Assembly: GCA_025934995.1 (NCBI GenBank)
Contig: JAICWC010000012.1
Coordinates: 1 to 40,091 of the forward strand
DNA: 40,091 nt
Direction of reading: 5' to 3'
DNA from: Thermoleophilia bacterium
GTDB lineage: Bacteria; Actinomycetota; Thermoleophilia; Gaiellales; Gaiellaceae
Shown here: positions 22,776 to 24,870 of the stretch, one piece after another
Position numbering within the stretch: position 1 is the first letter of the stretch
How the letters are laid out: every line of letters starts with the position of its first letter
Notes under the pieces: model-generated
Told to the model about the DNA's origin: nothing
Seen by the model: the letters and a program-made list of their open reading frames with translations, nothing else
The model's database searches: none
Program-made: the position numbers and the translations under genes

Positions 22776-23105
22776 GTGCGGATCGACCACGTCCAGGTAG
22801 CGGGGCCTCCGGGCTGCGAGGAGGATGCGCGCGCGTTCTACGGCGGCGTGCTCGGGCTCCGCGAAATGGAGAAGCCGGACGCGTTGCGCGACCGGGGCGG
22901 CGTGTGGTTCGAGCACCTCCACGTCGGCGTCGAGGAGGGCTTCCGGCCGGCGCGCAAGGCACATCCGGCGCTCCTCGTCGAGGACCTCGACGCGCTCGCG
23001 GCGCGGATCGGCGACGTGGAGTGGGACGACGCCGTGCCCGGCGTCCGCCGGTTCTACGCACGCGACCCGTTCGGCAACCGCTTGGAGTTCCTGCAGAGGC
23101 CCTGA
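22776..23105 (+). CDS. VOC family protein (glyoxalase/bleomycin-resistance fold)
   Basis: 109 residues forming one VOC module: DHVQVAGPPGCEEDARAFYGGVLGLREMEKP, FEHLHVGV, HPALLVEDLDALAARI and the terminal RRFYARDPFGNRLEFLQ. His and Glu at the ends of strands are the usual metal ligands. GTG at 22776. Function within the superfamily (lyase, dioxygenase, binding protein) unknown. It lies 17 bp before the propeller-redoxin gene on the same strand. Confidence 0.88.
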   Translation: MRIDHVQVAGPPGCEEDARAFYGGVLGLREMEKPDALRDRGGVWFEHLHVGVEEGFRPARKAHPALLVEDLDALAARIGDVEWDDAVPGVRRFYARDPFGNRLEFLQRP

Positions 23106-23122: not shown

Positions 23123-24493
23123 ATGCCGATCACGACACAGACGGTGGCGGCGATTCCGGTCGGTCTCGATCCGGAAGGCACCGCCGTCGACATCCGCCGG
23201 CGCCGCGCGTATGTGGCCTGCTCCCGCAGCGACACGCTCGCCGTCGTCGACCTCGATGCCGCCGCCGTCGTGACGCACGTCTCCGTCGGCGCGGAGCCGA
23301 TCGACGTCGTCTTCGACGAGCGAACAGGCCGGATCTTCACGGCCGACGCGCACGCCGACGCGCTCTCGGTGGTCGATGCCGAGACGCTGACTGTCGAAGC
23401 GCGCGTCCCCGTCGGCGCGTACCCGTCGGGCCTGACGCTCGACAGCGACGAGCGCCGCTTGTACTGCGGCAACTCGATGGGCTCGACGATGAGCATCCTC
23501 GACCTCGACACGCTCGAGACGCTGGCCGTGGTCGACGCCGAGCCGGGAGCCGGAGCCGTCGCGGTCGACGCGACACGGCGGCTCGCGCTCTGCGTCAACT
23601 TCATCGCGGCGTCGGTGACCTTCGTCGATATCGACACGTTCGAGTCGACCGGACGGGTGGAAGTCGGGCAGGGCGCATGCGCGGTCGGCATCGTGCCGGA
23701 GCGGGGCGAGGCGTTCGTCGTCAACTCGCTCGCGGGAACGGTCGCGCGGATCGACCTCGAGTCGCGCACCGTCGTCGAGGAGCTCACCGCCGGGAGCGCG
23801 CCGGTCGGACTGACTGTCGCACCGCAGCACGACCGCGTCTACGTGACGAATCGCGGCGACGGCACCGTCTCGGTTCTCTCCGTCGTGGACGGCTCGGAAT
23901 GCGGGCGCATCGACGTCGGCGAAGGCCCCGGCGGCGTCGTCGTCGATCCCGGCGACGGGCGCCTCCTCGTCGCGAACGCCGGCAGCGGGACGCTCGAGAT
24001 CGTCGAAGAGGTACAGCGGGACGGTGTGGAAGACAGTGCGACCGAAGGCCTCCTTGCGCAGCTCGTCGGCCGCAGCCTCCCCGCGTTCTCACTCCCCGAT
24101 CACCACACGGGTGAGCAGCGCACGAGCCTCGAGTGGGCGGAGAGGCGCTACATCCTCAACTTCTTCGCGAGCTGGTGAGGCCCGTGCAACGCGGAGGCGC
24201 CGTTCCTCGAGGATCTGCGTCGAAGCGAGGGGGCCCGGTCGGGCCTCGACGTCGTGCTCATCAGCGTCTGGGAAGGCAGCGAGGCGCGGCCGGAGGTGGA
24301 GCGGTTCCGCGAGCTGTGGGGCATCGACGCGACGATCCTCCTCGACGAGACCGGCGACTACGCGCGGCAGCTCGGGATTCGCGGCGTGCCGACGAACGTG
24401 CTCGTCGACGCCGACGGGATCGTCCGCGACGTCGGGCTCGTGCGGCTCGACGACCTGCATGCGGCGGTCGACCGGCTGATCGCAGACGGTTGA
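23123..24493 (+). CDS. YVTN/NHL beta-propeller fused to TlpA-like redoxin; in-frame TGA at the redox Cys, candidate selenoprotein
   Basis: ATG at 23123 opens seven propeller blades (about residues 5-305) with repeats such as VPVGAYPSGLTLDSDERRLY and LTAGSAPVGLTVAPQHDRVY. A linker leads to a thioredoxin-like domain (about 322-456): LVGRSLPAFSLPD, RRYILNFFASW, then TGA at 24176-24178 (codon 352), GPCNAEAPFLEDL, LDVVLISVWEG, the cis-Pro site IRGVPTNVLVDADG, and TGA stop at 24491. The internal TGA replaces exactly the first Cys of WCGPC; the frame and protein-like composition continue for 104 more codons. The reading is therefore Trp-Sec-Gly-Pro-Cys. Sequencing error or a nonsense mutation is the alternative. 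If TGA is a true stop, the product is a propeller ending in a truncated redoxin. No signal peptide is seen. The stop overlaps the next VOC gene (TTGA). Confidence 0.8.
24179..24235 (+). promoter_or_regulatory. candidate bacterial SECIS-like RNA structure downstream of the internal UGA
   Basis: Three nested complementary pairs follow the UGA: GGCCC (24179-24183) with GGGCC (24231-24235), ACGC (24189-24192) with GCGT (24217-24220), and GAGG (24194-24197) with CCTC (24205-24208). The apical loop CGCCGTT begins 19 nt after the UGA and has G at its second position. Reported bacterial SECIS rules ask for a loop 16-37 nt from UGA with a G in the first two loop bases. Stems are short, so support is modest. 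Confidence 0.4.
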
Positions 24494-24870
24494 GCGCGCT
24501 CGATCACGTCGGGATCGCCGTTGCCGACTACGCACGGAGCAAGGCGTTCTACGAGCGAGCGCTCGCGCCGCTCGGAATGGCATTGCTCATGGAGTTCTCC
24601 GAAGCGGCGGCCGGGTTCGGCAGGGAAGACGGCGGACGACCCTCGTTCTTCATCGAAGCGCACGGAGAGCCCGTGCGCGGCCGGCTGCACATCGCTTTTG
24701 CGGCTGAGACTCGTGCGCGGGTGGACGCCTTCCACGCGGCAGCCCTCGAGGCCGGCGGCAGGGACAACGGCGCGCCCGGCCTGCGCTGGTACCACGCCGA
24801 TTACTACGGCGGCTACGTCTTCGATCCCGACGGCAACAACGTCGAGGCTGTCTGCCACCTACCCGCTTAG
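24490..24870 (+). CDS. VOC family protein (glyoxalase-like)
   Basis: 126 residues: ALDHVGIAVADYARSKAFYERALAPLGM at the start, FFIEAHGEP, LHIAFAAETRARVDAFHAAAL and YYGGYVFDPDGNNVEAVCH at the end, all hallmarks of the glyoxalase/bleomycin-resistance fold. TTG at 24490 overlaps the stop of the propeller-redoxin gene in a TTGA, so it needs ribosomes that finish that frame. This coupling itself argues that the redoxin frame is translated to its end. Reaction unknown. Confidence 0.88.
   Translation: MSALDHVGIAVADYARSKAFYERALAPLGMALLMEFSEAAAGFGREDGGRPSFFIEAHGEPVRGRLHIAFAAETRARVDAFHAAALEAGGRDNGAPGLRWYHADYYGGYVFDPDGNNVEAVCHLPA

Follow-up and report, generated by a model that had tools for sequence, protein, structure and literature searches.

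In thioredoxin-fold oxidoreductases, the first cysteine of the CxxC motif is the nucleophile. In NHLRC2-type proteins, a thioredoxin-like domain is joined to a beta-propeller and is located at the N terminus. Several types of bacterial UxxC selenoproteins have been catalogued, namely redoxins (PF08534), Prx-like thiol:disulfide oxidoreductases (PF00578), and thiol-disulfide isomerase-like proteins (cd02966) (PMC13188914, May 2026), which agrees with the premise of the first-pass annotation of the locus described here that UxxC versions of thioredoxin-like proteins are genuine bacterial selenoproteins.

The window (the whole analysed stretch of DNA, 40,091 nucleotides) contains a predicted propeller/redoxin selenoprotein gene at positions 23123..24493 of the forward strand, on which all features given below are located. 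The gene encodes 456 residues when read through an internal TGA. From the ATG at 23123, the frame reads ...YILNFFASW-TGA-GPCNAEAPFLEDL... and continues for 104 sense codons past the internal TGA, including the cis-Pro motif IRGVPTNVLVD, up to the terminal stop TGA at 24491..24493; homologues stop nearby with TAG, TAA, or TGA. The in-frame TGA at 24176..24178 is the predicted codon 352 of W-U-G-P-C, for selenocysteine (Sec), the rarely used 21st amino acid; it is set in NFFASW-U-GPCNAEAP, and the distal motif reads RGVPTN. The putative resolving Cys355 of U-x-x-C is encoded by TGC at 24185..24187 (invariant in alignment A1 and in the protein of G362, a genome of another family). The codon at 24389..24391 specifies Pro423 of GVPT (invariant in A1), which takes the cis-Pro place in the thioredoxin fold. 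On re-reading the frame, the coordinates given by the first-pass annotation (ATG 23123, TGA 24176-24178, stop 24491) proved exact. Judging from the comparisons presented below, the TGA at 24176-24178 is very probably a selenocysteine codon (probability of about 0.95); the computational tests that might have refuted this earlier proposal favoured selenocysteine.

A Pfam domain search was performed on the protein with Cys written for U. The YncE/YVTN-type beta-propeller domain occupies residues 1-297 (23123..24013), with PF21783 (YncE-like propeller) matching residues 49-231 at 55.7 bits (cut-off 27.1). The TlpA/ResA-type redoxin domain occupies residues 315-442 (24065..24448) and is matched by Redoxin PF08534 over the whole of this range (65.6 bits, 5.7e-18; cut-off 26.6) and by AhpC-TSA PF00578 over residues 315-436 (55.9 bits; cut-off 26). 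The AlphaFold model built with 11 homologues (mean pLDDT 86.9, pTM 0.80) shows strands over all of residues 3-298, followed by a linker of low confidence at 299-309 and then by a thioredoxin-like alternation of strands and helices; the active-site block 351-360 is less confident, about 69. The top Foldseek match is E. coli YncE, and a PDB sequence search with the C-terminal part returned ResA and DsbE. In alignments, the TGA codon falls on the first Cys of WCGPC in 3gl3, a solved structure of the DsbE-like type, and on that of WCxPC in Cys-containing paralogues, so that its placement exactly at the first Cys of the WCxxC motif, noticed initially from the sequence alone, is confirmed. The Redoxin match and the frame itself likewise bear out the proposed joined frame of 456 residues with a thioredoxin fold past the TGA. 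Both W-U-G-P-C and G-V-P-T are invariant in A1; the WCxxC-type active site and the cis-Pro are present, with predicted Sec for the first Cys. The beta-propeller in the first 300 residues was absent from the first-pass annotation.

No obvious signal peptide or membrane segment was seen by eye in the N-termini of the window protein and its relatives. Some other features of the N-terminal part can be noted. Within the genus, C33, C157, C186, and H77 of the propeller are invariant, and among the propeller cysteines C186 alone appears to be kept in the distant G362 protein. In relatives L034-L043, L080, and L081, the protein is extended at the N terminus by a segment bearing a conserved Cys (GAACRI; ASCLI/AFCQV in distant members), which is absent from the window gene (23123-23140); it is possible that this is an extra redox Cys, lost in the window gene.

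Compared with the catalogued UxxC selenoproteins (PMC13188914), the window protein has a thioredoxin-fold domain of the same Pfam families and the predicted Sec in the same first position of U-x-x-C; however, the catalogue includes no propeller fusion, the word "propeller" being absent from its text, and no standard bSECIS hairpin common to the homologues was found in the window family. The proteins ResA, DsbE, and TlpA share the redoxin domain and align with it over residues 315-437, including W-C-G-P-C, whereas the window protein has predicted Sec for the first Cys, a propeller fusion, and no signal peptide discernible by eye. The curated NCBIfam cut-offs of these families were not reached (50 of 170 bits for ResA, 47.2 of 123.15 for DsbE, and 37.3 of 230 for TlpA), and the window protein is therefore not classed as any of them. 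None of the NCBIfam selenoprotein models attains its cut-off on the window protein, and the only match not far below cut-off is that of a general beta-propeller repeat model. The YncE/YVTN proteins have the beta-propeller fold of residues 1-297, but the identity to solved relatives is about 15-22%, and these carry no redoxin domain. The NHLRC2-type proteins also combine these two kinds of domain, but their thioredoxin-like domain is N-terminal, whereas that of the window protein is C-terminal.

A TGA at codon 352 and an intact downstream half were found in 12/12 full-length homologues, comprising the window gene, ten congeners (61-68% identity), and one protein of another family (about 46%). 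The search of 121 related genomes revealed a full-length homologue in 10 of the 15 congeners, each with exactly one internal TGA. When the ten were read one by one, the TGA was at the same codon, in the context W-U-G-P-C-N-A; the tail past it is 103-104 residues long and closes with TAG or TAA. In 399 genomes of the class, a profile search yielded one more full-length member, that of G362, which belongs to a different family; its identity to the window gene is 46% in the propeller and 58% in the tail, and it retains W-U-G-P-C and an intact tail. The same search yielded a fragment in G324, whose contig ends before codon 352. No further members were obtained from 396 sampled genomes of the phylum or from 146 of the G362 family. 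A peptide-pattern scan of 84,980 genomes, which used two propeller peptides only and whose reach is limited to close relatives, returned ten records consistent with the congeners already known; they are labelled mostly Actinomycetota or Thermoleophilia, and one is labelled Acidobacteriota. The homologue query carried the terminal stop as a residue; the weak "1 TGA" matches of G090 and G073, which extend to query position 457, probably reflect the natural stop and were not counted. The propeller matches L082-L086, which fall outside the family, lack a redoxin domain. A weak redoxin-domain match (340-434) with an internal TGA was observed in G101.

Retention of the TGA in 12/12 homologues is far beyond chance for these sequences. 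The source is a draft metagenome-type assembly of 200 contigs, in which a TGC or TGT could have been turned into TGA by a sequencing or assembly error; however, this TGA recurs in 12 separate assemblies, from different species and at identities as low as 46%, which speaks against a base-calling error. The homologues in practice refute an error at this position, and the chance of it is negligible. The TGA might also be a nonsense mutation, leaving either a pseudogene or a shortened gene for the propeller alone and a decaying remainder, and standard annotation would indeed stop the gene at 24178. Decay of the downstream half in close relatives would have spoken for this, as the first-pass annotation pointed out; instead, the tail is open, and by sequence comparison it is not decaying and is conserved about as well as the body. 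The pN/pS values against the window gene, which are rough owing to divergence and high GC, are 0.59-0.75 for the tails and 0.49-0.68 for the bodies of the congeners, and 0.55 and 0.73, respectively, for the G362 gene. In addition, the catalytic C355 and the cis-Pro are invariant, and the identical codon is affected in every species, which leaves a nonsense mutation with almost no credibility. Taken together, a sequencing error or a broken gene is very unlikely for a codon conserved in all full-length relatives. The propeller is a complete domain ahead of the TGA, and two proteins could be produced by termination at the TGA and restart downstream; however, the TGA is located within the thioredoxin fold, where the active site is, and the first possible in-frame start past it is a GTG about 26 codons on; a protein begun there would be missing both the first strand and the redox motif. 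Such an arrangement is extremely improbable, and selenocysteine remains the preferred reading of the TGA.

As for the codon of the relatives at this position, which the earlier annotation had proposed to check, it is TGA and not Cys in all full-length homologues. Redoxin paralogues in related genomes have Cys (WCxPC) at the position aligned with the TGA. Thus, Cys is found there at the level of the domain, whereas 1,062 genome searches, in sets that overlap, revealed no propeller-redoxin fusion with Cys at this position. Almost all selenoproteins are reported to have many Cys homologues (PMC12013277), which makes the apparent lack of a Cys form unusual; this lack was not part of the first-pass annotation.

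The genome of the source, a soil actinobacterium, comprises 2.85 Mb in 200 contigs, with 88% completeness and 5.9% contamination. It encodes the decoding genes that the first-pass annotation had suggested searching for, and all four, selA, selB, tRNA-Sec, and selD, were found. The tRNA-Sec scores above the Rfam threshold, and ARAGORN also identifies it as tRNA-Sec, giving TCA as its anticodon; selA adjoins selB, and both are on the tRNA-Sec contig. In the genus, selB was detected in 13/16 genomes, the other three being 71-88% complete. It was not found in G002 (84% complete) and G003 (71%), although the fusion gene is present in them, and it was found in G362 and G324. A second, partial selA match was observed in the source genome near a contig end (G000:C155:12759-13439; 307.7 bits, positions 17-248 of 455); this is either a second copy or contamination. 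The frame would also be open if UGA encoded any residue, as a result of general reassignment of UGA or of non-specific readthrough to an amino acid other than Sec. However, UGA terminates both the upstream VOC gene (23103-23105) and the window gene (24491-24493), so the earlier statement that the code is not generally reassigned holds; moreover, the genome has the Sec machinery, and UGA is at the redox Cys in both UGA-containing genes. We consider this explanation to have only a slim chance, and insertion of Sec at the internal TGA is preferred.

The second of these genes, L087 (G000:C103:5273-5731), is a frame with one TGA met in the redoxin search of the source genome; it was not reported in the first-pass annotation. 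It encodes a 153-residue peroxiredoxin-like protein, FDWSAT-U-TSEM, with the TGA at the peroxidatic position, and is unrelated to the window gene. Matches to it were found in 34 of the 61 related genomes, and in all 34 there is a copy with one internal TGA, a pattern like that of the window gene and seen throughout the order; apart from the gene itself, identity ranges from 42 to 83%. Of these copies, 14 were read directly; in them, the TGA occupies one and the same position, and downstream of it comes a hairpin of almost constant sequence, GCUCCUG-CGUGA-CAGGAGC, with 21 nt from the UGA to the 5-nt loop and with G at loop position 2, followed by U. This geometry is the published bSECIS pattern (PMC13188914). 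Covariation was not shown in this hairpin, in which the pairs hardly vary. L087 is thus predicted to be a second selenoprotein of the source genome, and given its conserved TGA and textbook SECIS, the lineage seems capable of recoding UGA by the usual route.

A bacterial SECIS must lie just after the recoded TGA. In the window gene, codons +1 to +11 past the TGA (24179..24211) form a synonymously constrained stretch, the probable SECIS site: codon identity is 0.911 against 0.730 expected (p=0.00025), and codons +3 to +11 are almost frozen (0.980, where 0.770 would be expected from the amino acids encoded). Synonymous conservation is not unusual in codons -12 to -1 and +25 to +60, and the strongest constraint in the gene is located in the codons directly after the TGA. 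A few windows about 236 codons upstream have high scores as well, so that the post-TGA signal is the strongest of the gene, yet not the sole one; this second stretch of high synonymous conservation is located about 228-238 codons upstream of the TGA, in the propeller region (around 23465-23500). A hairpin conforming to the published bSECIS rules gives scattered matches in some homologues and none common to all, a misfit to the standard model that the first-pass annotation did not mention. The fold energy of the 46 and 70 nt past the TGA is no better than that of shuffles and is ordinary for the base composition. An RNAalifold consensus and pair counts revealed no useful covariation downstream of the TGA, which can be explained by the sequences being too conserved. 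A stem at columns 22-31/36-45 with a UCGA loop is 89% paired, without compensatory change. A subset of bSECIS elements is known to fall outside the standard model (PMC13188914). The codon conservation suggests that an RNA element is probably present in the codons after the TGA.

The window gene is flanked by two VOC/glyoxalase-like genes, located at 22776-23105 (ending in TGA 23103-23105) and at 24490-24870 (126 aa), the TTG start of the latter overlapping the TGA at 24491-24493. This overlap had been taken as a sign that translation to the end of the frame is expected. The overlap is indeed present; however, as evidence of readthrough it is weak, because the relatives stop at TAG or TAA and keep no VOC neighbour. 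The flanking VOC pair was not seen in the relatives: seven have divergently transcribed genes, which by eye we take to be acetyl-CoA synthetase, acetate transporter, and M24 peptidase genes, and three others have a different downstream gene. The operon argument was rejected, as the arrangement is not conserved, and the neighbouring genes say little about the function of the fusion protein.

The following mechanism can be proposed. SelA would make Sec-tRNA(Sec), using selenophosphate from SelD, and SelB loaded with this tRNA would insert Sec at codon 352 under the direction of an RNA element that overlaps with the codons immediately past the TGA. The product would be a thiol-disulfide oxidoreductase with the Sec of W-U-G-P-C as its nucleophile. 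Since the first Cys of CxxC is the nucleophile in this fold, Sec352 would attack a disulfide or oxidised thiol of the substrate, and Cys355 would then resolve the selenenylsulfide. The N-terminal propeller would probably be the part on which a substrate or partner docks. The codon and its conservation, the domains, the decoding genes, and the synonymous constraint past the codon are observed, and from these we infer Sec insertion, redox activity, cellular location, and the role of the propeller; the fusion protein is probably cytosolic, because its N-termini show no obvious signal peptide by eye.

Literature searches, which covered few subscription journals, returned only works on animal selenoproteins and human health for selenoprotein with beta-propeller, and no on-topic work for Thermoleophilia with selenocysteine. 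UxxC redoxin selenoproteins are already known; the window gene, once recognised, extends them by a propeller-fused architecture that is absent from the May 2026 catalogue. Standard annotation would truncate the gene at residue 351, with loss of the catalytic motif. The locus also provides a case of predicted Sec use under the label Thermoleophilia; no selenoprotein survey of this lineage was found in the literature searched. A bolder and rather doubtful proposal is that this is a Sec-only family, a fusion without a Cys form in the lineages searched and with a SECIS outside the standard bacterial model, beside a selenoprotein with a textbook SECIS. If true, cells with both a standard and a non-standard SECIS would help in defining the recognition requirements of the SelB of this lineage.
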